Shown here: piece by piece, positions 14,589 to 28,271 of the stretch
Layout of the letters: each line of letters opens with the position of its first letter
How positions within the stretch are numbered: the stretch's first letter is position 1
Translations under genes and position numbers: made by a program
Notes under the pieces: generated by a model
Seen by the model: the letters and a program-made list of their open reading frames with translations, nothing else
What the model was told of the DNA's origin: nothing
The model's database searches: none
From: Bdellovibrio sp.
Lineage (GTDB): Bacteria; Bdellovibrionota; Bdellovibrionia; Bdellovibrionales; Bdellovibrionaceae
Assembly: GCA_025359945.1 (NCBI GenBank)
Contig: JANYDD010000081.1
Coordinates: 1 to 60,665 of the forward strand
Direction: 5' to 3'
DNA length: 60,665 nucleotides

Positions 14589-15521
14589 ATGGAACCATTC
14601 AATACATTTAGTCTTCGCGTGTCGGATCTTCATCAACTTTACGTCGAGGAAAGCGGAAATCCAAAAGGGTATCCGATTGTTTTCCTTCATGGTGGGCCCG
14701 GCGGAGGCACGACTTCACTTCAACGCGAATTTTTTGATCCCAAGTTTTATCGAATTATTTTGTACGATCAGCGTGGGTGTGGAAAGAGCCTTCCGTTTGC
14801 CGAGCTTCGCGAAAATACAACTTGGGATTTGGTCGACGACCTAGAAAAAATTCGCAAGCATTTGGGCATTTCAAAATGGCACGTGTTTGGCGGAAGTTGG
14901 GGTTCTACCTTGGCACTTTGTTACGCCATCAAGTATCCTCAGGTGATTTCGGCACTTTTGCTCAGAGGCATTTTTTTGTGTCGGCATCTTGAGCTTCAAT
15001 GGTTTTATCAAAGTGGCGCATCGATGATTTTTCCGGATTTTTGGGAAAAGTATAAAAACTTTATTCCTGCTGATGAACGCGATGATTTTATCTCTGCCTA
15101 CTACCGGCGTTTAACCAGTGCGGACAAGACGCTTCAACTTCAGGCCGCCCGAGTTTGGAGTCAGTGGGAAGCTGCGACCTCGTATCTTTATGTCAATGAG
15201 CCTTCGATTGCAGAATATGCTGATCCTCACAAAGCACTGCCGTTCGCAAGAATCGAAGCTCACTACTTTGTAAACAATGCCTTTTTAAAATCTGACAATC
15301 AGATTTTAGAAAACGCCAGCCAATTTCAAAATATCCCAGGAAGAATTGTTCAAGGTCGATACGACGTGGTTTGCCCCGTTCGAAGCGCCTTTGATTTGCA
15401 CCATGTTTGGAAAAAATCTGAGCTCGTGGTGGTTCCAGATTCAGGGCACTCAGCCTTCGAACCTGGAATTAAAAAAGACCTGATCAGGGCTTGCGAGGAC
15501 TTTAAGGTCTTTGCAAATTAG
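14589..15521 (+). CDS. pip: Prolyl aminopeptidase (peptidase family S33)
   Basis: Prolyl aminopeptidase removes N-terminal proline from peptides in the cytoplasm. The 310 residues show the diagnostic HGGPGGGTT oxyanion segment (near 36), DQRGCGKS, and the nucleophile elbow GGSWGSTLAL. An acid follows in GRYDVVCP and the catalytic His in DSGHSAFEPG. The length and the GGSWGS elbow fit the proteobacterial monomeric type. The gene follows a terminator and has no visible Shine-Dalgarno. It converges with menH, overlapping its 3' end by about 20 bp. It may help use peptides, which would suit a predatory or protein-degrading lifestyle, but that is inference. Confidence 0.93.
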   Translation: MEPFNTFSLRVSDLHQLYVEESGNPKGYPIVFLHGGPGGGTTSLQREFFDPKFYRIILYDQRGCGKSLPFAELRENTTWDLVDDLEKIRKHLGISKWHVFGGSWGSTLALCYAIKYPQVISALLLRGIFLCRHLELQWFYQSGASMIFPDFWEKYKNFIPADERDDFISAYYRRLTSADKTLQLQAARVWSQWEAATSYLYVNEPSIAEYADPHKALPFARIEAHYFVNNAFLKSDNQILENASQFQNIPGRIVQGRYDVVCPVRSAFDLHHVWKKSELVVVPDSGHSAFEPGIKKDLIRACEDFKVFAN

Positions 15522-16266
15522 GATTTAGACTATCAACGAAATTTGAAATTGTATCTGCCAGAGGCTGAATTTTTTCAGCAAATATCAACCGATGTCCTTG
15601 CCCTTCTAAAATTGCCGTTTTGGTTTTTGGAATTTTTTGAATTGCTAAGTTCAAAAATTTTTCATCTTGGCCGCCGATGATCCATAAATATTTTTTTTCT
15701 GAATTTTGAAGCCTATCAGCATAATTTTCTTGATGTGCCAACGACCAATTTTTTAAAGCAGCACTTAAGATATCTCTCGAGAAATTTTCTTCCAGACGAA
15801 TAGGTTCCGGGAAATTCTTAAATACCGTTTGCTGGTTCCAACTTTTATAAAGCAATTGCCAATCTTCATTCAAGAATCGCCTTGCCCATTCAAGATCACT
15901 TTTTTGCCTGCTGATTTTTTCTTCGAGACAAAGCAAGCCGGGGTGGGTGGAAATAAAAATCGCTGCATCCCAGAATGTTTGATTTTCAAAAAAAGATTGC
16001 AGAGCAAGCCGGCCACCCATGGAATAGCCGACTAAAATTTTTAATTTTTCCGAACTAAAACTAACCATTTTAGAGTTCAAATAATCATGGAACTTTTTAG
16101 ACCATTCAGCTTTAGCCCCACTGGGTTGAAGCATTGTTTCGCCGAACAAAGAGTGTTGATACCACTGCCAACCCTTTGGTGCCAAAGATGATTTCAGAAA
16201 ATCCCAATCAGAAGGTTCACCTAAGAATCCATGCAAGCAATGAAATTCAACCAAGGGTTTAATCAT
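15502..16266 (-). CDS. menH: MenH-type alpha/beta hydrolase (SHCHC synthase)
   Basis: MenH removes pyruvate from SEPHCHC to give SHCHC, the step after MenD in menaquinone synthesis. The product of about 254 residues has the alpha/beta-hydrolase pattern: LHGFLGEPSDW near the N-terminus, nucleophile elbow VGYSMGG, acid in GGQDEKF and His in GQGHRL. Family membership alone would not fix the substrate, but its position directly after menD does. The ATG at 16266 overlaps the menD stop (TGATG), indicating translational coupling, so I prefer it to the in-frame start at 16290. It is the last gene of menF-menD-menH. Confidence 0.88.
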   Translation of the reverse strand: MIKPLVEFHCLHGFLGEPSDWDFLKSSLAPKGWQWYQHSLFGETMLQPSGAKAEWSKKFHDYLNSKMVSFSSEKLKILVGYSMGGRLALQSFFENQTFWDAAIFISTHPGLLCLEEKISRQKSDLEWARRFLNEDWQLLYKSWNQQTVFKNFPEPIRLEENFSRDILSAALKNWSLAHQENYADRLQNSEKKYLWIIGGQDEKFLNLAIQKIPKTKTAILEGQGHRLIFAEKIQPLADTISNFVDSLNPNLQRP

Positions 16267-17867
16267 CAGATTTTTCGGTAACCTTGCCAAAAAAGTTTTG
16301 ATTGCAGATCATCCGGTTTTAGTTCAACGACTGTTCGGCGCGGAAGTTTCGACAACTGCGAAATATCTTCGCAATATAAATAGTTCCAATTCCACATTTT
16401 CGCCCAATGAGAAAAATTTAATTGATGGTTGTTGGTCATCATCAGTTTTAAATTTTCTGTTTCGGAATCACCCAGGGTAGTTCCTGAGAAAATATTATTA
16501 AAAATTTGGCCGCCACTATTGTTTACTATTACCAAAGTGGTTTTGTCGCAGTTGACTTGATTCAGCGAGGGCCACAAACCAGAAAGGTCATACAAGGCCG
16601 TTAAATCACCAAAAACTCCCAGCGAAGTTTTTTCCGCGGACAAAGCGCCGATAAAACTAGAAATCTGCCCATCGATTCCGTTAGCACCGCGAAGCCCCCA
16701 ATACTTTTTGTGATTCGAAAGGCTTCCGTCCAAATCCCATTCGCGAATGGGAAGGCTATTGCCCAGGAAAACAAAATCAAATGCGAAATCTTTTTTTAAT
16801 TTTGCAAGTTGCGCCGATTCACTAAGCGGATAATTTTCTAAAATCTGCACGACTTTTTGTCTTTGTGATTGGTCCAAATTCAAAAGTGTTTGAACCTCGG
16901 TACTAGCCCAATCACTTTCAAAATATTTAAGATGATCATAGCCTGTATAATGCTGAACACTTCGACCTAGTCCTTTGAACTCTAGGTGCGACACTGAAAT
17001 CACGGGTACTTCCTTCAGATCTAAATCTAAATCTCGCCAAAATCTTGGGGTGGGCGTTCCGCCAATCTTTAAAACACTATGAAATTTCCCATCAAGGAAG
17101 GCCTTTTTGACCCATAAATCAGCAGCTGCCAAAACATTTTGCGAAGGTCTTACCATGCTCAAGGACTCGCACCATATGGGGGCTTTGAAATTTTCTAAAA
17201 AAGTTTGAATGAATTCCGTGTTTTCGCAGTAGGGACCAAGAATGACCAAGGGCTTTTTCATCGCCCTTTTCTTTAGGGAATGAAAAAAAGTTTTCCGCTC
17301 GTGGGGTGATATCTCAACCCGGATGTTTGCAGGCTGAGCTTGTGAAACCTGCTGCTCCAAGGCAGAAGTCGCCAGGAGGGGCTCGCTAAAACAAACATTC
17401 AAATGGAATGGCTGGGATTGATCCCACTGCTGCAAATTTAAAGTTTCGTCCAGATGTTCGATGTCCTGTACTGACTGCACATATTTTCCAAACAGATGAA
17501 CTTGATCGATGGTTTGCGGCGCCCCGGATCCGCGAAAAGACCTGGGCCGGTCAGCAGAAACAATCAACAGTGGCAATCCCTGGTAGTGGGCTTCAATCAC
17601 TGCGGGTAAACATTCCGCCACAGCGGTGCCGGAAGTCATAAATAAAGCCACCGGTTTTTGACTCTCTGATATTCGCCCTAAAGAAAAAAAGGCGGCACAT
17701 CGTTCCTCGAAAAATGAAAAGACTTTGAAAGTTCCCGGGTTAAGCGAATTGATTTTCTGGATCGCAGGCAAGAAGGGTGCGTTTCTGCCACCTGGGCAAA
17801 AAACAATTTCACAGATTTGCAAGGCCGCTAAATTTTGTAGAATTTTTTCGGCCAAAGCTGAATTCAA
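16266..17867 (-). CDS. menD: SEPHCHC synthase MenD (thiamine-diphosphate enzyme)
   Basis: MenD joins isochorismate with 2-oxoglutarate, using thiamine diphosphate, the first committed step of menaquinone synthesis. The 533 residues have the ThDP-enzyme layout. The N-terminal PYR domain starts with VFCPGGRNAPFLPAI and has FEERCAAFFSLG (with the cofactor-activating Glu) and MTSGTAVAECLPAVIEA. A central domain follows, then a PP domain with GDLTALYDLSGLW and IVNNSGGQIF. It overlaps menF by 4 nt upstream and menH by 1 nt downstream. Nothing looks truncated relative to the usual 550-580 residues. Confidence 0.96.
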   Translation of the reverse strand: MNSALAEKILQNLAALQICEIVFCPGGRNAPFLPAIQKINSLNPGTFKVFSFFEERCAAFFSLGRISESQKPVALFMTSGTAVAECLPAVIEAHYQGLPLLIVSADRPRSFRGSGAPQTIDQVHLFGKYVQSVQDIEHLDETLNLQQWDQSQPFHLNVCFSEPLLATSALEQQVSQAQPANIRVEISPHERKTFFHSLKKRAMKKPLVILGPYCENTEFIQTFLENFKAPIWCESLSMVRPSQNVLAAADLWVKKAFLDGKFHSVLKIGGTPTPRFWRDLDLDLKEVPVISVSHLEFKGLGRSVQHYTGYDHLKYFESDWASTEVQTLLNLDQSQRQKVVQILENYPLSESAQLAKLKKDFAFDFVFLGNSLPIREWDLDGSLSNHKKYWGLRGANGIDGQISSFIGALSAEKTSLGVFGDLTALYDLSGLWPSLNQVNCDKTTLVIVNNSGGQIFNNIFSGTTLGDSETENLKLMMTNNHQLNFSHWAKMWNWNYLYCEDISQLSKLPRRTVVELKPDDLQSKLFWQGYRKI

Positions 17868-18919
17868 TTTTTAATTCCTAATTGAGAAAAAATTGACTGT
17901 CTTTTTAACAAAGTCTCGGCCCATTCTTGATCCAATTCGCTGGCATCCACGATTCCGCTGCCGCTGCCGATTAAAAACTGATCCTGATTCCATTCTAAAT
18001 GTCGGATGGCGACCAGGCCCAACTGTTCTGCGGGTAAATTAAAAACCAATGGCGCTCCGTGAAAATAGCGAAGTTCTTGTTCGGGCAAATTGCGAAGCCA
18101 ATGATAGCCGTAATTTCTTGGGGCTACCCCTAAGGCCGCGGTGGGGTGAAGCATTTTTATTATATCTAGAACTCCCGGAAGCTCCAGGCTGGTGACTGTC
18201 AATTCAGTAATCAGGTGGTAAAGCATAGGAAGCTCAAGCACGCGGGTGGGGGATTGAGTGGGCTTTCCAAAAATGCCTAGTTGCTTTGCCAAATCCTTCA
18301 CGACCAATAGATGCTCGTGCATTTCTTTTGGGTTTTTGATTAGGTCCGCGGGGCTTAGATTCAAAGTTTTGGCCATCGTTCCCGCTAATGCAGCAGTTTT
18401 TAGTTCTGTCCCGCGTTTGCGAAATAAAATTTCAGGAGTGGCACCGATGGCTCCACGTTCCGAGTTCCAAATTCCAAACGGAAAAAAATTCTCCGCTGCT
18501 TTTAAAACAGAAATCATCCAACCCGCCAAAAACTTCGAGGGGTCCAAGCGGGGTCCCTTGGAAAAGTTGACTAAAATGGCCTTATCAATTTCGCCGCGTT
18601 GGACTTGGCCTTTAATAAACTGAAAAGAATTATCGTAGTTTTTTCGGTCGGGTGGCTGAAAGTGGCCAGAAGTTAAGGGTTGAGCCCCTAAAAATGGTTC
18701 CAAAATCCGAATGGCCTCAAAAACCGGAATTTTTAAGGGCGGCTTTTCAAAGGTAATGGCTGAAACCGACGATTCGAAAAACGGCAAAAGATACAGATTT
18801 TCATCTTCGCCCGCGTTCGATGGTCGCTGTGCGCCCGACCAAATCCAAACTTCTTGGGCAGACGCTCGCAGAAAAGCGCCTGACACACAAAATTCTTGCC
18901 AATTGAAATGTTCGGTCAT
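17864..18919 (-). CDS. menF: Isochorismate synthase
   Basis: The enzyme isomerises chorismate to isochorismate, opening the menaquinone branch. The 351-residue protein belongs to the chorismate-binding family (with anthranilate and aminodeoxychorismate synthases). Conserved C-terminal blocks are visible: GATPEILFRK, AALAGTMAK, HLVVKDL-like HEHLLVVKDLAK, LHPTAALGV and GSGSGIVDASELDQEWAE. Placement in front of menD identifies it as isochorismate synthase rather than another family member. The ATG at 18919 follows AAAGGGG, which decides the start over a TTG-type start at 18937. About 105 bp separate it from the divergent DAHP synthase gene. Confidence 0.93.
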   Translation of the reverse strand: MTEHFNWQEFCVSGAFLRASAQEVWIWSGAQRPSNAGEDENLYLLPFFESSVSAITFEKPPLKIPVFEAIRILEPFLGAQPLTSGHFQPPDRKNYDNSFQFIKGQVQRGEIDKAILVNFSKGPRLDPSKFLAGWMISVLKAAENFFPFGIWNSERGAIGATPEILFRKRGTELKTAALAGTMAKTLNLSPADLIKNPKEMHEHLLVVKDLAKQLGIFGKPTQSPTRVLELPMLYHLITELTVTSLELPGVLDIIKMLHPTAALGVAPRNYGYHWLRNLPEQELRYFHGAPLVFNLPAEQLGLVAIRHLEWNQDQFLIGSGSGIVDASELDQEWAETLLKRQSIFSQLGIKN

Positions 18920-19024
18920 AGTCCCCTTTGATAACATTTGTCTCCCTTATCAAGATGTATTGTTATATATATATTTTCGTATTTAGACTTTATCAATTCC
19001 TCGAAAGGCCCTGCTTTAAGATTT

Positions 19025-19843
19025 ATGTCAGAATTTTCAGAGAATTCGTTTCGTATCGGTGGTGGATACTTTGGCGTTATTGCAGGACCTTGTTCTATCG
19101 AGAGCGAACAGCAGTTTTTAAAAACTGCACTGTCAGTAAAGGCATCTGGTGCTGGGCTACTTCGTGGCGGCATTTGGAAAATGCGAACAAGCCCTGACAG
19201 TTTCCAAGGCTTGGGCGGGCAAGCGATCTCGTTAGTAAAAAATGTTTTAAACCAATCCAAGATCGGTTTGGTTTGCGAAATCACAGACCCAAGGCAAATT
19301 CCCTTACTGGATGACTTCGTTGCCATGTATCAAGTCGGCGCCAGAAATATGTACAATTATTCTTTACTCAAAGAGTTGGGGCAAACCCGAAAGCCGGTTT
19401 TGTTAAAAAGATCATTTGCCGCTTTGCTTTCCGAGTGGCTGAAGGCTGCTGACTATATCGAAAAAGGTGGAAACAAAAATATTATTTTGTGCGAGCGGGG
19501 GATCAGAACCTTTGAAACCTCGTCAAGGTACACATTTGATTTGAATTCGGTCCTTTTGGCCAAAGCGGAAAGCCGCTTTCCGGTGATTGTTGATCCGTCT
19601 CACGCGATCGGTTTAAGCGAGCACGTGCCGGCCTTAGCTCGCGCTGCTGCAGCGGCGGGAGCCGACGGAATGATTATCGAAGTCCATCCTGATCCTGCGA
19701 AGGCACTTTCGGACGGTCGCCAGTCTTTGAACTTGTTGCAGTTTGCGGACCTAATGAAAGACTTGGAAAAAATTCTGGCCGTTGTGAATAAAAAAATTCA
19801 CCGCCCAATGCCTAATTCTGTTTCTGCACCTTTAAATCTGTGA
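19025..19843 (+). CDS. DAHP synthase, type I-beta (first step of the shikimate pathway)
   Basis: It condenses phosphoenolpyruvate and erythrose-4-phosphate to DAHP. The 272 residues match the short KDO8P-synthase-like class: GPCSIESEQQF, RGGIWKMRTSPDSFQGLG, KPVLLKRSFAA, CERGIRTFE, DPSHAIGL and VHPDPAKALSDGRQSL. There is no extra ferredoxin-like, ACT or chorismate mutase domain, so simple feedback inhibition through such a domain is not expected. Compared with the usual AFKPRTSPYSF, the segment reads IWKMRTSPDSF. The start at ATG 19025 puts the first conserved block at the usual distance. The gene is divergent from menF and is followed after 10 bp by ubiE/menG, linking chorismate supply with menaquinone. 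Confidence 0.92.
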   Translation: MSEFSENSFRIGGGYFGVIAGPCSIESEQQFLKTALSVKASGAGLLRGGIWKMRTSPDSFQGLGGQAISLVKNVLNQSKIGLVCEITDPRQIPLLDDFVAMYQVGARNMYNYSLLKELGQTRKPVLLKRSFAALLSEWLKAADYIEKGGNKNIILCERGIRTFETSSRYTFDLNSVLLAKAESRFPVIVDPSHAIGLSEHVPALARAAAAAGADGMIIEVHPDPAKALSDGRQSLNLLQFADLMKDLEKILAVVNKKIHRPMPNSVSAPLNL

Positions 19844-19853
19844 AAGAAAATTT

Positions 19854-20564
19854 ATGAACGCCAAAAGTTCCCAACCGCTGACGATTCAAAATATGTTCTC
19901 GAAAATTGCGCCCCGATATGATCTAGCCAATTCGGTTTTATCATTGGGGATTCATCATTTGTGGAAAGAAAAGTTGGTCAAAGTTTCTGCTGCAAAAGCT
20001 GGGGAATCTGTTCTTGATTGCGCCACGGGCACCGGCGATTTGGCGATTCGGTTTAAGAGAAAAGTGGGGCGAACTGGGAAGGTGATGGGTATCGATTTTT
20101 GTTCAGAAATGGTGGCGCTTGCGCCGGCCAAAGCTACTGCCGAAAATTTGGATGTACAGTTCCAACGGGCCGATGTGTTGCGCTTGCCTTTTAGTGATAA
20201 AAGTTTTGATATTGTTTCCATCTCATTCGGCATAAGGAACGTCGCAGACCCACTGAAAGGCCTTAACGAAATGGCCCGAGTGTTAAAACCTGGCGGTCGT
20301 CTGGTGATTTTAGAATTTGGGCAAATTCAAAATCCGGTCTTGGGAAAGTTGTATCAATTTTATGCGCAAAAAGTTTTGCCCGTTTTAGGTGGCATTTTGA
20401 CGGGGCAAAAAAAGGCTTATGAATATCTTGAGAATTCGTCAGCACAGTTTCCTTGCCGAGAAAATTTTTTGAATTTAATGAATGAAACTAAGTCATTTTC
20501 GAAAACTTCGTATCGGTCACTTTCCGGCGGAGTGGCTTATATTTATGAAGCGATTAAAATCTAA
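19854..20564 (+). CDS. ubiE: Demethylmenaquinone (ubiquinone) C-methyltransferase
   Basis: UbiE/MenG methylates demethylmenaquinone with S-adenosylmethionine, the last step of menaquinone synthesis. The 236 residues show the family N-terminus MFSKIAPRYDLANSVLSLG, SAM motif I VLDCATGTGDLAIRF, motif DVLRLPFSDKSFDIVSISFG with RNVADP, and the family segment RVLKPGGRLVILEF. The C-terminus SFSKTSYRSLSGGVAYIYEA fits the family signature. It follows the DAHP synthase by 10 bp in the same transcript and overlaps the convergent outer-membrane gene by 11 bp. With only menaquinone genes nearby, MenG activity is the more likely one. Confidence 0.95.
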   Translation: MNAKSSQPLTIQNMFSKIAPRYDLANSVLSLGIHHLWKEKLVKVSAAKAGESVLDCATGTGDLAIRFKRKVGRTGKVMGIDFCSEMVALAPAKATAENLDVQFQRADVLRLPFSDKSFDIVSISFGIRNVADPLKGLNEMARVLKPGGRLVILEFGQIQNPVLGKLYQFYAQKVLPVLGGILTGQKKAYEYLENSSAQFPCRENFLNLMNETKSFSKTSYRSLSGGVAYIYEAIKI

Positions 20565-22173
20565 ATCCGACTCCAAATTCCGCAGCTAGGGCCGCGTGGG
20601 TGACTTTGCTTAAAGCGGTTTGCACTCCTGCTGTACTTTCAGATCTCTCAAACTGATAGTTATGACCGTAAAAAGCTAAAATCATATTAATTTTAGGGGA
20701 GTAATAGATGTACCCCTTCAAAGAAAGAATCAGCGCCTGAGCTTTTGCCACATCTTGGATTGTAGTGAACGGTAAGTACTCTAAATTAATTTCTAAAGTT
20801 TTTGGTTTTCGCAAAAAAGGAATTAAATTGATTATCCTTTGCAGGGGTGACCAAAGATCATCAGTGTAGGCAACCCCTATTCCATAAAAAGCGCCGGTCG
20901 GACCAGATGTTTTAATTTGTTTGTAGACGATTCCTGGCACAATACTTTGCCCGTATTTGGCGTTAGACCAACGATATCGGTATTGCAAAAGAACCCCGAT
21001 AAGTTGCGCGTAGTTGTTGTAAGAGGCTCCTAAGTTATCTACGTATTGTGCCCGGATTCCATATTTTCCAAACCACTGGCGCGCCGTTAAATCCACTGAA
21101 TTTGTAATCGACGAAGAGGCAAATCCGGCGCTGTAAAGAATATCAAGTTCGGATCGAAATCGGTCCTTCGAGAGGTCTTGGATATTTTCAATATCCATAT
21201 CAATCATCTGTGCCATCACTTCATCTTGTTTTTGAATTTGCACCAGCACTGAAACTTGGGATTCGTTTGAAAAATCCGCCTGAGGACGATTTCTGACCAA
21301 ACCAAATTGCGTCAATACGTCAATCAGTTCAAAAATCTTGGCCGCCGGAACTTTAAACGAAAAGCCAGTGTGAGTGTCAGAATCAACAATCGTGAGTTGA
21401 GGCTCAATTTTTCTTAATTCGTTTTCTACATCTTCAGTTTCAGAAGAAAACAAATAAGCTGGCACTAGGTCCAATATCAAATCAGCCTTGACAGTTTTTT
21501 TATCGGTACTGCCCACCGAATCCGAGGGATTAATTTCCAAGACCGAAACTACTAAGGGCACTTGGTTTGTATTGCCTTGGGATTTCTTCGAATCTTCGGC
21601 AAGAATTACGGACTCTTTTAAATTGGGCAAATTTAAGAGCTGTGAAAAATTATCTTGCGGCACTTGACCCGACAACGAACTTTTCCAGCCTTGAGATTTC
21701 TCGAACGGAAATTTGAACTCGCTCAATTTAGTTTTTAGGTCTTTGACCACCTGATTGGGCTCGCTGGAAGCTTGAAAGATTCTCATGCGGCCGTCGGGCG
21801 CAGGCAGGCCGCGATCCTGAAAAAACCAGATCACGATTTGGACTTTTCCCTTTTCAACCGATTTAACGGTTGGTCGTTTCTCGACAAAAATATCGCCTTG
21901 TTCGCTAAGATCTGTAAAAAGATCAAGGACAAGTTCTTGATCCAATTTAAAATAAAAGTATCGACTTCCTAAAAAAAGGCCATCGTAACGGACGGGTCCT
22001 AAATCTTCGGCGGCCCATGCATCCAGCTGGCTTTGCACGAATTCGGCATTTTTATCCTGGGAGTAATAGGCCACGTGATAAACTTGATCTTGCTGGGCAA
22101 AAGCAAAGGGAGAAATCAAAAATAAAGCAATCAGCGGAATAAGTCCGCCGATTATTTTTCGAAAAGCTGTCAT
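20554..22173 (-). CDS. Hypothetical exported protein with C-terminal beta-barrel-like region
   Basis: The 539-residue protein starts with a signal peptide (KIIGGLIPLIALFLISPFAFA, then QQDQ). The first 300 residues look like soluble periplasmic domains with repeated beta-alpha units (IVIWFFQDRG..., SFKVPAAKIFELIDVLTQF). The second half, from about 330, has alternating-pattern strands and ends in GVGFRF with a terminal Phe, the classic outer-membrane barrel end. I infer an outer-membrane protein with a periplasmic N-terminal part. It is downstream of aroC on the same strand (gap about 55 bp) but unrelated in function. No family recognised. Confidence 0.72.
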   Translation of the reverse strand: MTAFRKIIGGLIPLIALFLISPFAFAQQDQVYHVAYYSQDKNAEFVQSQLDAWAAEDLGPVRYDGLFLGSRYFYFKLDQELVLDLFTDLSEQGDIFVEKRPTVKSVEKGKVQIVIWFFQDRGLPAPDGRMRIFQASSEPNQVVKDLKTKLSEFKFPFEKSQGWKSSLSGQVPQDNFSQLLNLPNLKESVILAEDSKKSQGNTNQVPLVVSVLEINPSDSVGSTDKKTVKADLILDLVPAYLFSSETEDVENELRKIEPQLTIVDSDTHTGFSFKVPAAKIFELIDVLTQFGLVRNRPQADFSNESQVSVLVQIQKQDEVMAQMIDMDIENIQDLSKDRFRSELDILYSAGFASSSITNSVDLTARQWFGKYGIRAQYVDNLGASYNNYAQLIGVLLQYRYRWSNAKYGQSIVPGIVYKQIKTSGPTGAFYGIGVAYTDDLWSPLQRIINLIPFLRKPKTLEINLEYLPFTTIQDVAKAQALILSLKGYIYYSPKINMILAFYGHNYQFERSESTAGVQTALSKVTHAALAAEFGVGFRF

Positions 22174-22228: not shown

Positions 22229-23254
22229 TTAGATCCTATCCAATCGAGACCACAAAATGTGATCACATAAAGTTAACCAGATCATCGACTGCAGCACGGG
22301 GATAACTCGGGGAAGTAAACAGGGGTCGTGTCTACCTTTTTTTGAAACATCTAAAATTGAAGAAGTCGGCTTAATCCCAACCTCTAAAAAAATATCTTGG
22401 CCATTGCTGATGCCTCCGTTCACTCCACCGTAAACAAAGTTTTGTTGATTGTGAAAAGCCGATCCTGTTTGGGCTAAATCGAGGTCCCGCCCCAATTCAT
22501 AGCTGACCACAGAACCCACGCTGACTAGGGCTTTTGCGAAATCACTTTTTAATTTTCGAAACACGGGCTGACCTAAACCTGCTGGTGCACCTTGAATCAA
22601 AAGTCCGACATTGCCGCCCCAGCTTTCGCCATTTTCTTGGGCTGCCATCAGCATTTTTTTAATTTCAGATTCTCTTTCGCCAGGAAAGTAGCAGGACCGT
22701 TCAAAAAGATCCTTAGGATTTGTGAAGAATTTTTCCGCTTCTGATTTCGTCAGCGAAAAGGGACCAACTGCAGAGCTAAAGGCGTACACCTTAAGTTTTG
22801 GGAACAAAGTTTTTACGACCATCTCGGCAACACTTCCACCGATTACTCGGCCAACGGTTTCGCGACCCGAAGCCCGACCCCCTCCGCGGTAGTCAACATG
22901 TGCAAACTTTTCTCTCCACGCTTGATCGGCATGTCCTTTGCGGGGATTTTCTTTGATTTCATCATAGTCCTTCGATCGAGCGTCGGTATTGCGCACAAGA
23001 ATAGTTATCGGTGTACCCAATGTTTTGTCTTCAAAAACGCCACTCAAAATTTCTGGCGTATCCATTTCTTGTCGGGCTGAAACAATTTGTTTCCCTGCAG
23101 CGCCTGGTCGCCGGCGGATTAAATTTTTTTGTAAGATTTCTTGATCGAAAATAACTCCGGCCGGGCATCCTTGGATAAGGGCGCCAACAGCTGGTCCATG
23201 GCTTTCTCCAAAAGTAGTTAATTTAAAAATCTCGCCAAATTCGTTGCCGCTCAT
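22229..23254 (-). CDS. aroC: Chorismate synthase
   Basis: AroC converts EPSP to chorismate with reduced FMN, the last shikimate-pathway step. The 341 residues carry the signatures GESHGPAVGALIQGCPAG (12-29), RRPGAAGKQIVSARQE, DYRGGGRASGRETVGRVIGG and, near the C-terminus, GRHDPCLLPRVIPVLQSM. The length is near the usual 350-390, slightly short at the C-terminus. It starts 6 bp after the aroK/D/E fusion gene, so it is the final pathway gene of the aroB-aroA-aroKDE-aroC operon, in reaction order for the last steps. Confidence 0.96.
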   Translation of the reverse strand: MSGNEFGEIFKLTTFGESHGPAVGALIQGCPAGVIFDQEILQKNLIRRRPGAAGKQIVSARQEMDTPEILSGVFEDKTLGTPITILVRNTDARSKDYDEIKENPRKGHADQAWREKFAHVDYRGGGRASGRETVGRVIGGSVAEMVVKTLFPKLKVYAFSSAVGPFSLTKSEAEKFFTNPKDLFERSCYFPGERESEIKKMLMAAQENGESWGGNVGLLIQGAPAGLGQPVFRKLKSDFAKALVSVGSVVSYELGRDLDLAQTGSAFHNQQNFVYGGVNGGISNGQDIFLEVGIKPTSSILDVSKKGRHDPCLLPRVIPVLQSMIWLTLCDHILWSRLDRI

Positions 23255-23260
23255 AAAAAG

Positions 23261-25018
23261 TTAAACCTCTTGTTCTTTCCAAAAAACTTGTTGACCTTCT
23301 GCTTGCTCGATAAACATTCTATATCCTGAAACATATTTAGCTCCCACCAATAAAGCGTATTCGCGCGCCCTAGAGTGTTGAACGTAGTTCAAATCAAAAA
23401 CCTGCTTTGGTTTCCATTCTACCGGTGGCAACTCAGAAGTTGGTGACCCCGCCCAAATTAAAACGCTTGGACAGACATCAATGGTCAATTCAGCAATGCT
23501 GGCATCGCGGGCGGACTTAAAAATCGCGTCCGGCAAAATTTCTTTAATAGTGCTTAGAACTCCCCCGCCCCCCCAAACCACGACACTTGTTAAATCTATA
23601 TTTTGGCTTTGGAGGGATTCTGCAAGGCCAACGATGTCTGTGTTTTCAGCTTGATTGCGGGTTTCACAAATAAAAAGACTATTGGCAGACTCTAATTTTT
23701 TAACCCTCAAAGAATGTGAATTTGAAAACTGATAGGCGCAATTTTTTAACGGAGACGTCACCGCGGCCCATTTTAGACCTAACTTTTTAAAAAGCCTGAT
23801 TCCTTGGTCCCAATCTTCCTTTTGCAACTGAACTCTAAAAAAGGGAGATTTTCGCGCGCGAAAAAAACTTTCATGCTCCACGGGCGAAAAGCTATGAACG
23901 ACAGGATTTCCCAAGACTGCCGCCCAATTCTTTGTGTCGTAGGGGGTGGCCAACCATTCGAACAAAGTGGGCTGATCCAGTACGCCTGAGAATCCGTCGT
24001 TGATAAAATTTATTTTCTGTCGCCCTTTTAAATACCGGCGCAACCAATTCCACCTACCGTCGTTCGAACGCGGAAGAAAACTTCTCTGCAAATGGTCTTG
24101 TGCTTGCCAATCGATCATTTTTTCAGCTACTTCCCACGACACTTCTGCAGGAGAAAGTTTCAGATGCCGATGAGGCTGGGCTTCTAAAAACTCCGAAGAT
24201 ATTTCGTTTTGGTGGGTCGACAAAACGTGGGGATGGTCGAACGAAGAATTTCCCAACACTAAATCCCAATCTACTTTCAATTTTTCAAATTTTAAAAAAT
24301 GCAACAGCTCGTGAGAAATATTTGCTTTTCTGATCGAGAACAAAATTTTGGAATGAGGAATCTTTTTGGCCAACCCAAATATTTGCGATTCACTTAAAAG
24401 ATCATTACGAAGCTCGAACAGATCGTATCCCCATCTTAAACCACGAATTTCAAAACTGGCCCAATGAGCAAGATGACTTTGAGTCAAAGTTAAGCAACCG
24501 CCCAGACTTCGGATTTGATTTTGAAGAATTCGCCGCTCAATCTCGTGGGGCGCCTGCAGACCTTCTGGGACTTGATAGACCCAAGACGCCCATTGCCTAA
24601 ACTGGGGATCTCGCTGCGAAAATTTTACCGCGTATTCCGCTTGCGGTGATAGGTTTTTTAGAAGTCTAGGTCGGTCCAAAAAAATTCTGGGTTCGCTGTC
24701 CAACGCCCTTCGAATCCAAACCACCTCGAGGTCCTTGACTAGTTCAATAGCGTTTAAATCAAACCCAGCTCCAAGTGCTATCACAAAATCCGAGTGCTGA
24801 TTAAAAATTTCAGAGAAATATTTTTTTTCCAAATTTCGAAAGCTTTGCTCGCCTTGCCTATCGAAAATATTTTGGATTTTTCGACCTTCTCGGTTCTCGA
24901 TCTCTTGATCCAAATCAAAAAAACGAGTCTTTTGTTTTTCCATAGCGGCGTAAACACTCCAGCGCTTAAGCACGGAAGACTTTCCACAGCCACGATGACC
25001 TATAAGAACAATTTTCAT
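23261..25018 (-). CDS. Trifunctional fusion: shikimate kinase, type I 3-dehydroquinase, shikimate dehydrogenase
   Basis: One 585-residue polypeptide carries three shikimate-pathway enzymes. Residues 1-165 are shikimate kinase: P-loop GHRGCGKSS (7-15), FDLDQEIENREG, GEQSFRNLE and the adenine/lid RPRL. Residues 185-355 are a diverged type I dehydroquinase: ELRNDLL (202-208), H269 in LSTHQNE, Schiff-base Lys K287 in HLKLSP, an Arg segment LRRYLKG and the Q349 loop. Residues 366-585 are shikimate dehydrogenase: AAVLGNPVVHSFSP, VTSPLK with K425, NTDIVGL with D461, nucleotide loop VWGGGGV and SGYRMFIEQAEGQ. It overlaps aroA by 4 nt (ATGA). The SK-DHQ-SDH order matches the C-terminal half of eukaryotic AROM. 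The dehydroquinase domain is the weakest of the three. Confidence 0.92.
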   Translation of the reverse strand: MKIVLIGHRGCGKSSVLKRWSVYAAMEKQKTRFFDLDQEIENREGRKIQNIFDRQGEQSFRNLEKKYFSEIFNQHSDFVIALGAGFDLNAIELVKDLEVVWIRRALDSEPRIFLDRPRLLKNLSPQAEYAVKFSQRDPQFRQWASWVYQVPEGLQAPHEIERRILQNQIRSLGGCLTLTQSHLAHWASFEIRGLRWGYDLFELRNDLLSESQIFGLAKKIPHSKILFSIRKANISHELLHFLKFEKLKVDWDLVLGNSSFDHPHVLSTHQNEISSEFLEAQPHRHLKLSPAEVSWEVAEKMIDWQAQDHLQRSFLPRSNDGRWNWLRRYLKGRQKINFINDGFSGVLDQPTLFEWLATPYDTKNWAAVLGNPVVHSFSPVEHESFFRARKSPFFRVQLQKEDWDQGIRLFKKLGLKWAAVTSPLKNCAYQFSNSHSLRVKKLESANSLFICETRNQAENTDIVGLAESLQSQNIDLTSVVVWGGGGVLSTIKEILPDAIFKSARDASIAELTIDVCPSVLIWAGSPTSELPPVEWKPKQVFDLNYVQHSRAREYALLVGAKYVSGYRMFIEQAEGQQVFWKEQEV

Positions 25019-26217
25019 AAAAAATTATCCGGGAATGCCTTCCAGAAATCAGGAATACTTTTTCTCACCGCCGACGAATTCTGTATTTTAATTTCGGGAT
25101 TTTTAATTTTAAACAAAGCTGCCGCAAAGACCATGCGGTGATCGTCAAAGGGGTCAAACGTAAAGCTTCTAGGCTTAAAACCAATCCCTTGCCCAAAAAT
25201 TTTTAAAAAGTTTTTTTCTAATTCAAAAGAAACGCCCGCTTCTTTTAACAATTTTATGGTGCGCTCTAGCCGGTCGGACTCTTTAAATTGAATGTGATGA
25301 AACCCGGTCAGTAGGCTAGTGCCCTGGGCAAAAGAAAGCATTCCACACATCACCGGAAACAAATCTGGAGTATTTTTGAAATCAAAATCAAAGGAATTAA
25401 TTTTTTTTGCTTTCGAAACCTTTAAAACTTCTAAGCGATTTTCGCATAAAATTCCCATGCGGTTAAATAATTCTAGAAACACATGATCAGGTTGAAGTCC
25501 TGTGTCCAAAAAGGGATTCAAGACAAGGTCTCCGCCCACAGCTGCGCAAGCCGCAAATGTAAATGCCGAGCTCATATCGGTTTCACATTTAGCGAGCACC
25601 ATTGAGCCTTCGCCCAAATGTCTGTCAAAATCCGGCGGAATAAAAATTCCCGAATCAATGGTTTCCATTCGCGCGCCCCATTGCTTTAAACAGCGAATGG
25701 TCATCTGCAGGTATTCGTTTGAAACTCCGGCTCCCGGTGGGTCTAAACGGATGGTTAGACCATTGTTTCTTAGCTGTGGCCAATCCAGGCAGTTTAAAAG
25801 AAACGCACTGGCAAATTGACTAGAAATTTCATTTGAAATTCGAAGCTCTTTTTCGGGCTTTATCCATCCATTTGATTTGATTTTTAATTCGCGCTTTCCC
25901 CAATCTGTTTGAACACCCAAGTCATTTAAAATCGCCGTTAGGGTTTGATGAGGTCTTGAAAAAAGATTATCTTCGCCTTGAATAATAAATTCACCGACCT
26001 GGCGAGATAGTCGCAGCGCCAAAAAGCGAAAGGGTGCCGCGCCAAAAGAAATTTTTTGAACGGGTTTTTTAATATCTTCCAAAGCGTTTTTAAGATCCAA
26101 AACGTCTTGGGATTCGGTGTTAAATAGTAGCTGGTGCTTTGGAAAAAAAGAGCTGACGATCAAACTGCGTAAGACAATCGATTTCGAAGAATGAAGTGGT
26201 CCTGAATAACTAAACAC
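25015..26217 (-). CDS. aroA: 3-phosphoshikimate 1-carboxyvinyltransferase (EPSP synthase)
   Basis: EPSP synthase transfers the enolpyruvyl group of PEP to shikimate 3-phosphate. The 400 residues show the family blocks: SGPLHSSKSIVLRSL near the N-terminus (substrate-binding Lys), QGEDNLFSRP, ISSQFASAFLL, KCETDMSSAFTFAACAA, KESDRLERTIKLLKEAG and FDDHRMVFAAAL. It is slightly shorter than the usual 420-450 residues. It overlaps aroB upstream by 8 nt and the aroK/D/E fusion downstream by 4 nt, so ribosomes probably pass from one frame to the next. Sequence alone does not settle the glyphosate-sensitivity class. Confidence 0.96.
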   Translation of the reverse strand: MFSYSGPLHSSKSIVLRSLIVSSFFPKHQLLFNTESQDVLDLKNALEDIKKPVQKISFGAAPFRFLALRLSRQVGEFIIQGEDNLFSRPHQTLTAILNDLGVQTDWGKRELKIKSNGWIKPEKELRISNEISSQFASAFLLNCLDWPQLRNNGLTIRLDPPGAGVSNEYLQMTIRCLKQWGARMETIDSGIFIPPDFDRHLGEGSMVLAKCETDMSSAFTFAACAAVGGDLVLNPFLDTGLQPDHVFLELFNRMGILCENRLEVLKVSKAKKINSFDFDFKNTPDLFPVMCGMLSFAQGTSLLTGFHHIQFKESDRLERTIKLLKEAGVSFELEKNFLKIFGQGIGFKPRSFTFDPFDDHRMVFAAALFKIKNPEIKIQNSSAVRKSIPDFWKAFPDNFL

Positions 26218-27220
26218 AAGCTTGCCTTTTCCATTCGTTCTTGAACATTTGGATGGAAATTTTTTCTCTAACGACTTTGCCGGGTTTTAGAATAAAGGTC
26301 TCTTCAATTTTGTGTGGGCTCACTAATTTTTTGTCCTGAAGCAGTTCGAAATGGGGGTTTGAAACTAAATTTAAAAAAGTTCGTTTTTGATGAAAGGCTT
26401 GGGACATCTGGGGTGCCGCTAATATTAAAATTTTGATTTTTTCATATTCGATTTGAGACAAATATTTTTTCTTAAGACTCCAATCCAGCGCAAACAAGAC
26501 TCCGAAAAAAACCGCTTTGCCGTGGGGCAAGCTCAAACGAGACTCCAAAACATGACCCACAGAATGGCCTAAATTCAAAACTCTTCGAAGTCCTTTTTTT
26601 TCGAAAGGATCTTTGGCGACGATTCGCATTTTAGCGCTGACCAGGTCAGGTAGGACTAACCAAAAATTTTGATCTATTTTTTTCCAAAGCGATCCCCCGG
26701 AAATTAAACCCATTTTCAAGACTTCACCCCAGGCTTCTTGAATATTTGAGGACGGCAGCTGATCAATCACTTCGGCCACAATAAAAACATGTTTGGCAGG
26801 GTAGAAAGTTCCCAACTGATTTTTAATATCCAAAAAATTAAGGGCAGTCTTTCCGCCGTGGCTGGAATCCATTGCCGCCAAAGCCGTGCTAGGAATGTGC
26901 ACTAAGCCTACGCCGCGTTTGTAGATGCTAGCTAAAAAGCCAACAAAGTCTCCGACACTGCCGCCACCAAATGACAAAAAAGTAATCTCGGCACAAGGCA
27001 GTCCGCCGGTGGCCTTTAATGCCAAAGGTAAAACATCCCGAATACTTTCAAGACTTTTTAATTTTTCCCCAGATTTCAATGCTATTTTATTTGGAAACGT
27101 CTTCAAAAACTTTGGATATTTTTTTTCAAAAATCGAATCGTAGAATAAAAATGAGCCCTTCGTTATGGGAATTTTTTCTAGCCGCTTTAAAAAGATAACT
27201 TCAGTTTCTAGAGTCTCCAA
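26210..27220 (-). CDS. aroB: 3-dehydroquinate synthase
   Basis: AroB converts DAHP to 3-dehydroquinate with NAD and a metal ion. The 336-residue product has the NAD/substrate blocks FGGGSVGDFVGFLASIYKRG, IPSTALAAMDSSHGGKTALN, and the metal ligands in EVLKMGLI (Glu), LNLGHSVGH (His) and LPHGKAVFFG (His). I set the start at TTG 27220. It has a strong Shine-Dalgarno (GGAGG, 7-8 nt upstream) and overlaps the ung stop by 13 nt, whereas the longer frame up to 27457 lies inside ung and has no AroB-like sequence. It heads the aroB-aroA-aroKDE-aroC run. Confidence 0.94.
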   Translation of the reverse strand: METLETEVIFLKRLEKIPITKGSFLFYDSIFEKKYPKFLKTFPNKIALKSGEKLKSLESIRDVLPLALKATGGLPCAEITFLSFGGGSVGDFVGFLASIYKRGVGLVHIPSTALAAMDSSHGGKTALNFLDIKNQLGTFYPAKHVFIVAEVIDQLPSSNIQEAWGEVLKMGLISGGSLWKKIDQNFWLVLPDLVSAKMRIVAKDPFEKKGLRRVLNLGHSVGHVLESRLSLPHGKAVFFGVLFALDWSLKKKYLSQIEYEKIKILILAAPQMSQAFHQKRTFLNLVSNPHFELLQDKKLVSPHKIEETFILKPGKVVREKISIQMFKNEWKRQACV

Positions 27221-27918
27221 TCGACGGCCTCCAATTTTTTCTGGGTCAAAAAATTGTTGGCTTTTGAAAAGGGTTTTGACCCTAAGAATCCTCGATACGC
27301 AGATAAAGGCGAAGGGTGCACGGACTGCAACACCAAATGTTTTACCGTATCGATCAAATGAATTTTTTTCTGAGCTTGGCTTCCCCAAAGCATAAAAACA
27401 ACATGCTGCTTTTGTTCTGAAATCACTTGGATCACGCGATCGGTCCAAGTTTTCCACCCCTGATTTTGATGCGACCCTGGTTTGCCGGATTCGACGGTCA
27501 AAACACTGTTGAGCAAAAAAACCCCACTTTTAGCCCACTTTTCTAAATACCCAGAACTGGGTCGAATCACTCCGACATCAGTTTCTAATTCTTTAAAAAT
27601 ATTCATCAGCGAGGGTGGTGGTCTTTGGCCAGGAGGAACCGAAAAACTAAGACCATGCGCTTGACCCGGTCCGTGGTAAGGATCTTGACCCAAAATTACA
27701 ACTTTTAATTTTGTCAATGGAGTCAGCCGAAAGGCTTCGAAATAATTTTTTTTCTCTGGAAAAATGACTTTATTTTTTTGATATTCGGCCTTTAAAAAAA
27801 GTTTCAGTTTAATCATATATTCTTTTTGAAATTCAGTTTCCAAAAATGGACTCCAGCTTTGTTCTAGGCCGCTTTTTGACGCAGTTTTGGTCGGTGCGAG
27901 GTCGATTTGTTTTTGCAT
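27208..27918 (-). CDS. ung: Uracil-DNA glycosylase
   Basis: Ung excises uracil from DNA. The product of about 236 residues has the water-activating GQDPYHGPGQAHGLSFSV motif, the uracil-binding LLNSVLTVE segment and the His-containing HPSPLSAYRGF loop. The ATG at 27918 (MQKQIDLAPTK) gives the usual family length; the frame is open 53 codons further upstream but that extension is unlike Ung. It lies immediately upstream of aroB, with a 13-nt overlap, so the repair gene may supply the promoter of the aro operon. Confidence 0.95.
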   Translation of the reverse strand: MQKQIDLAPTKTASKSGLEQSWSPFLETEFQKEYMIKLKLFLKAEYQKNKVIFPEKKNYFEAFRLTPLTKLKVVILGQDPYHGPGQAHGLSFSVPPGQRPPPSLMNIFKELETDVGVIRPSSGYLEKWAKSGVFLLNSVLTVESGKPGSHQNQGWKTWTDRVIQVISEQKQHVVFMLWGSQAQKKIHLIDTVKHLVLQSVHPSPLSAYRGFLGSKPFSKANNFLTQKKLEAVDWRL

Positions 27919-28271
27919 AAATCTTTGATTACCACTCGCGCGGGGGCTTTTAACAGCAAAAATTATTTCAATTGGTTTCGTATGTAAGTCTTGAAGGAGT
28001 TTTGAAAATATCTGGGTGGGGGTAAAAACACTGTGCCAAACTCTAAGGACAAGGTGTCGTTCCCGTGTCGTTCGCACAAATACTTTTTCAATACCCTCCC
28101 AATATTAAACGGCTCAAAGTGTGCCGTCTCGACTTTAGATAAGTCTCAAAATGAGAAATCTAATTTTTAAATCGAACTCATTGGCTTTTATTGAAAAACG
28201 ACAAACTAGACCAGCCTTGACCTGAAAAAAGTGAGCTCTATTGATATAATTAATAATGGAAGGAGCACTTT
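27919..28271. other. Divergent intergenic region, about 350 bp
   Basis: It separates ung/aro (leftward) from the 132-residue gene (rightward). I see an 11-bp-spaced duplication of GTGTCGTTC (28054-28062 and 28065-28073), a small inverted repeat ACGGC/GCCGT (28109-28113 and 28123-28127), and a promoter at its right end. Part of the left side stays open in the ung frame, but nothing supports an N-terminal extension. Confidence 0.4.
28222..28250 (+). promoter_or_regulatory. Extended -10 promoter of the 132-aa gene
   Basis: A perfect TATAAT (28245-28250) is preceded by TGA to give an extended -10 (TGATATAAT). The -35 is poor: CTGAAA at 28222-28227 with 17-bp spacing; a better TTGACC at 28217 is 22 bp away, too far. 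The start codon at 28272 has an excellent GGAAGGAG Shine-Dalgarno, so the leader would be only about 15 nt. Confidence 0.55.

Follow-up and report, generated by a model that had tools for sequence, protein, structure and literature searches.

The window, a stretch of 60,665 nucleotides from a Bdellovibrio draft genome, carries on its minus strand the genes ung, aroB, aroA, aroKDE, and aroC, in that order; nearby, on one strand or the other, are genes for step 1 of the shikimate pathway and for the menaquinone branch from chorismate. The aroKDE product is predicted to combine shikimate kinase (SK), dehydroquinase (DHQase), and shikimate dehydrogenase (SDH). The features are as follows:

27208..28077, minus: ung, uracil-DNA glycosylase; upstream gene, adjoining the operon in many relatives
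26210..27457, minus: aroB, 3-dehydroquinate synthase; overlaps aroA by 8 nt
25015..26217, minus: aroA, EPSP synthase; shares 4 nt (ATGA) with aroKDE, to which it is fused in frame in some relatives
23261..25018, minus: aroKDE, predicted trifunctional SK-DHQase-SDH, 585 aa (ORF, Pfam, alignment of relatives, whole-protein fold prediction)
24539..25018, minus: SK domain, ~residues 1-160, with P-loop GHRGCGKSS, D35, D37, R61, R116, and R136 (Pfam SKI, invariant residues)
23945..24514, minus: diverged type I DHQase domain, ~residues 169-358, with E202, R204, R230, H269, K287, and Q349 (profile against PDB, fold of the domain alone, invariant residues)
23264..23929, minus: SDH domain, ~residues 364-585, with S376, T421, K425, N446, D461, GGGG 483-486, and Q576 (Pfam Shikimate_dh_N, VIA match to AroE 1nyt, invariant residues)
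22229..23254, minus: aroC, chorismate synthase; starts 6 nt past aroKDE
19854..20564, plus: menG/ubiE methyltransferase
18938..19843, plus: DAHP synthase, step 1 (TIGR01361 above cut-off)
15502..18937, minus: overlapping genes of an operon, the menaquinone branch from chorismate: menF-like 17864-18937, menD 16266-17867, menH-like 15502-16290

The two overlaps and the short gap suggest that the aro genes are translationally coupled. The true start of aroB is probably a TTG near 27220, shortly ahead of where ung ends. The order aroB-aroA-aroKDE-aroC was kept in most of the relatives inspected, often with ung upstream; scans for promoters and terminators yielded hits at about the level expected by chance. 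Directly downstream of aroC lies a gene for a 539-aa protein (20554-22173, minus) that begins with a signal-like hydrophobic stretch and is matched by no Pfam or NCBIfam model.

The aroKDE frame and its outer domains

The aroKDE ORF begins with an ATG and, as the original prediction had proposed, bears the hallmarks of three enzymes in a single frame of 585 residues. GHRGCGKSS (residues 7-15), H269, K287, VTSPLK (420-425), and NTDIVGL (459-465) were all located where that prediction had placed them, and the catalytic residues among them do not vary across an alignment of 28 sequences. Matches to the protein were found in 52 of 59 related genomes, most of them full-length at 33-44% identity, which, together with the invariant catalytic residues, excludes chance. 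There is almost no prospect that the fusion is an artefact of assembly or frameshift that joined neighboring genes: the window does come from a draft genome of 106 contigs, but full-length open frames are present in more than 90 independent genomes, single-contig ones included.

The identity of the two outer domains is shown by curated profiles and by fold. Pfam SKI (PF01202) matched residues 9-149 (E 3.5e-19; 69.9 bits against a curated cut-off of 22.1), and the SK residues of the P-loop, D35/D37, R61, R116, and R136, whose functional roles we take from AroK structures, are invariant in the 28 sequences. Shikimate_dh_N (PF08501) matched residues 368-447 (E 1.9e-9; 38.1 bits against a cut-off of 27), and in the substrate-binding domain of SDH the catalytic Lys, K425, and the Asp, D461, are likewise invariant. 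The SDH domain matched AroE 1nyt with a Z of 23 over 219 residues (VIA). It is short (~222 residues), and an unusual GGGG replaces the usual cofactor loop. NCBIfam likewise pointed to SDH and SK, though neither score reached its cut-off; for SDH the equivalog-level model TIGR00507 gave 79.5 bits against 200.2.

The middle domain and the third step of the pathway

The middle segment was missed by single-sequence scans with both Pfam and NCBIfam, and no significant Pfam match was obtained in residues 165-360 when the single sequence was searched. PF01487 rose above its curated cut-off in none of the 116 genomes of the order, and was matched by four of 28 single members (best E 0.0013). Once the relatives were pooled, however, the segment did match DHQases. 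The four best matches of a profile made from this part alone of 28 relatives, compared with all PDB sequences, were the type I DHQases 2ocz (E 1.8e-4), 3l9c, 2egz, and 4ph6. In that comparison the His and Lys of the query fell opposite the His of S-Y-H-N and the K of KIAV, respectively. Across the 28-sequence alignment, the middle part has among its invariant residues E202, R204, D206, R230, S267, H269, K287, and Q349, and the His-Lys pair was retained even in very divergent members. The alignment also revealed that the glutamate of R-x-x-E-G-G, a motif of classical DHQases, is not conserved.

The middle domain alone was modeled by AlphaFold2 at a pLDDT of 94.6. Foldseek ranked an archaeal dehydroquinase first for this model, with a probability of 1.00 and a TM of 0.63 at an E of only 4.6e-3. 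In VIA, each of the first 40 entries contains a type I DHQase, with Z from 14.3 down to 11.2 and an rmsd of 3.0-3.7 over 174-189 residues; pyruvate kinase came next, at Z 11.1, so that at the lower end the DHQases are level with other TIM barrels. Estimates of dN/dS for the middle domain were ~0.04 and ~0.11 in two close Bdellovibrio pairs, low values that indicate purifying selection on the domain. The profile and fold results are each modest alone, but taken together with the invariant His and Lys they identify the middle domain as a diverged type I DHQase.

The content of the genome points the same way. One SK match and one SDH_N match were found in it, both inside the aroKDE ORF. A separate aroD or aroQ, which the original prediction had named as evidence against itself, was not found: the draft (106 contigs, ~96% complete) has no type II DHQase and no other type I DHQase. 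A second DHQase could sit in a gap of the genome, though the same pattern repeats in more than 100 genomes. Given this, and given the profile, the fold, and the invariant residues, the middle domain very probably performs the otherwise missing DHQase step, by its predicted activity. The strongest argument for an active middle domain is that the fusion and type II DHQase are distributed in a complementary manner. Type II DHQase was detected in only three of the 116 genomes of the order (G043, G048, and G053), all of them in family f8, all with aro genes but lacking the fusion; G048 has unfused aro genes, with that for type II DHQase directly after aroB.

A protein that is functionally bifunctional, with SK and SDH on either side of an inactive, structural DHQase-like domain, has a known precedent. 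In Aro1 of Candida albicans the DHQase domain is without its His, and step 3 is left to a separate type II enzyme (PMC9074039). Inactive DHQase domains are thus known in such fusions (PMC9074039), and the middle domain here is the fastest evolving of the three and very diverged. We nevertheless consider an inactive middle domain improbable, as H269 and K287 are invariant, whereas the His has been lost in the C. albicans domain, no DHQase of type II, and no second one of type I, occurs in the fusion-bearing genomes, and the middle domain is under purifying selection. The best supported reading of the 585-aa protein is that of a trifunctional SK-DHQase-SDH enzyme with a diverged middle DHQase, its activities being predicted ones, and we hold this reading with high confidence. 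SK and SDH are recognized by Pfam, and the middle segment by the profile of pooled relatives and by its type I DHQase fold.

By this trifunctional reading, AroKDE would convert 3-dehydroquinate, the product of AroB, to shikimate 3-phosphate. The middle TIM barrel would dehydrate its substrate through a Schiff base formed by Lys287, His269 acting as general acid/base (step 3); the C-terminal domain would use a nicotinamide cofactor, probably NADPH, to reduce 3-dehydroshikimate (step 4); and the N-terminal kinase would phosphorylate shikimate (step 5). The original prediction was mistaken in calling these steps non-consecutive, as only their order along the chain (5-3-4) departs from that of the pathway. 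AroA and AroC, whose genes belong to this coupled operon, would then convert shikimate 3-phosphate to chorismate, and in this genome the chorismate would most likely feed menaquinone synthesis through MenF/MenD/MenH/MenG. The ~96% complete genome yielded just one chorismate-binding enzyme, the MenF-like protein (17864-18937), and when it was searched for chorismate mutase of the CM_2 type and for prephenate dehydratase, neither turned up; the pathway therefore probably serves menaquinone here. It is by inference that we assign activities to the individual domains, menaquinone as the destination, and any functional advantage to the fusion. Channeling of intermediates by AroKDE is possible; for fungal AROM, as quoted in PMC9074039, no gain in throughput was seen.

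Because Pfam and NCBIfam do not see this DHQase, a hole in the pathway can be false, and homology-based predictions of auxotrophy may for that reason be wrong at the DHQase step. The Bdellovibrionaceae have been singled out in such predictions (PMC10665431). The main text of the iCH457 model paper of B. bacteriovorus mentions neither shikimate nor dehydroquinate.

Distribution of the fusion and its extension by AroA

Within the Bdellovibrio order the SK-DHQase-SDH fusion is the rule. The fusion or pieces of it were found in 109 of 116 genomes, and the fusion profile was matched in 111, with G043 and G048 matching by SK alone. The original prediction that a triple arrangement is unusual in bacteria therefore holds for bacteria at large, but not within this order. 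Beyond the order the trifunctional form has a patchy distribution, occurring in some members of families f15, f16, and f24, and family f17 has mostly separate SK and SDH matches. A scan of genome contigs with the single protein as query returned only a stand-alone SDH.

Several other arrangements were noted among the relatives. G228, which belongs to a different family in the phylum, carries between aroA and aroB a fusion of 466 aa in which SDH precedes SK, the reverse order (L084:1785-3182, plus). In G174 and G208 (L075, L077), aroKDE directly follows aroB, with no aroA or aroC match within the stretch examined. In G118 (L088:4065-6655, plus), the DHQase-SDH part continues in frame into AroC and the kinase is split over two frames, an arrangement that is possibly an SDH-AroC fusion or a frameshift of the draft genome.

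In nine genomes, AroA was found in frame with aroKDE, its match ending 7-16 residues before the kinase: G001 and G020 (f1), G046, G051, G055, G088, and G089 (f10), and G214 and G177 (f16, outside the order). These EPSPS-SK-DHQase-SDH frames are ~1,000 residues long and occur in at least three lineages (L034, L035, L036, L037, L038, L073, L074, L080, L081). A quick tree of 55 fusions, unrooted and with some long branches, requires three state changes, two of them forced by well-supported branches, which suggests that the AroA fusion probably arose more than once. Among the relatives examined no frame includes AroB, and hence there is no pentafunctional form, the fusions having at most four domains. 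Two candidates were set aside: a 1366-aa frame of G214 considered as pentafunctional, in which AroB lies in another frame, leaving it tetrafunctional, and a 1073-aa frame of G058 considered as an aroA fusion, in which aroA lies in another frame. An order that includes predators has kept the trifunctional form, with several lineages tetrafunctional, in an operon of AROM order. Such living intermediate stages could be used to probe why shikimate fusions exist and whether they channel intermediates.

Comparison with AROM and other shikimate fusions

Fungal AROM has the arrangement N-DHQS-EPSPS-SK-DHQD-SD-C (PMC6851490). AroKDE shares with AROM/Aro1 of fungi and protists (PDB 6hqv, 7tbv, 7u5s) the domain order SK-DHQase-SDH and the DHQase of type I, and aroB and aroA adjoin aroKDE in the order of the N-terminal half of AROM. 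It differs from AROM in being bacterial, in having three domains (four in some relatives) rather than five, and in its much shorter domains. The whole protein, for which the original prediction had proposed a structure prediction, was modeled at a pLDDT of 92.7 and a pTM of 0.91, and the best Foldseek matches of this model in the PDB were AROM and then plant DQD-SDH. The DHQase-SDH pair superposes on the plant enzyme over ~404 residues at 3.6 A, but on AROM only at 17-19 A rmsd. The mutual placement of DHQase and SDH is thus predicted to be plant-like and not AROM-like, from a predictor that was trained when the plant structures were public. The plant-like placement is the type that reuses the DHQase dimer face between domains (PMC10792529).

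We considered whether the fusion shares an origin with fungal and protist AROM, either because AROM derived from such a bacterial operon or fusion or because the genes were transferred from a eukaryote to bacteria. The shared domain order, the aroB-aroA-aroKDE gene order, and the tetrafunctional forms would fit with this, and AROM tops the PDB lists both by profile and by fold. That lead, however, is the sum of several domains; for single domains, the SDH of Aquifex scored 81 bits against 43-49 for AROM, and its SK 62 against 42-47, and the predicted geometry between domains also differs from that of AROM. A common origin is accordingly unlikely in our estimation. As the per-domain scores reveal no special kinship with AROM, the AROM-like arrangement likely arose by convergence. 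More tentatively, we hypothesize that the Bdellovibrionota independently evolved an AROM-like system in which AroB, AroA, and AroKDE act as one assembly, stepwise from an operon of AROM order, with its trifunctional and tetrafunctional stages extant; this is an idea that we think has some chance of being correct, though less than an even one. If true, it would provide a bacterial model for how AROM arose.

In a systematic search, bifunctional shikimate fusions were found in prokaryotes and the large ones were placed in eukaryotes (PMC10792529). No report of a bacterial trifunctional or tetrafunctional shikimate fusion was found in the literature searched, which for the most part did not extend to subscription papers. 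Plant DQD/SDH (Arabidopsis, PDB 2gpt, 2o7s) also has a type I DHQase followed by SDH in the same predicted mutual placement, whereas AroKDE is bacterial, has an N-terminal SK, and is ~19-20% identical to it. The clostridial DHQD-SK (CASP15 T1180, UniProt R7C7N8; PMC10792529) also joins a type I DHQase to SK in a bacterium, but it is bifunctional, in the reverse order, and without SDH. The chlamydial AroDE (NCBIfam NF006802, bifunctional DHQase/SDH) is a bacterial DHQase-SDH fusion without SK, and its model matches the SDH part of AroKDE (E 1.5e-13) but misses the middle domain. The N-terminal SK is shared by the AroK-AroB bifunctional enzymes (NCBIfam NF010556, NF010627), in which it is joined to AroB, without DHQase or SDH. 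Shikimate multi-enzymes are known as a class, and it is the bacterial trifunctional and tetrafunctional version, in the order of AROM, that appears to be new.
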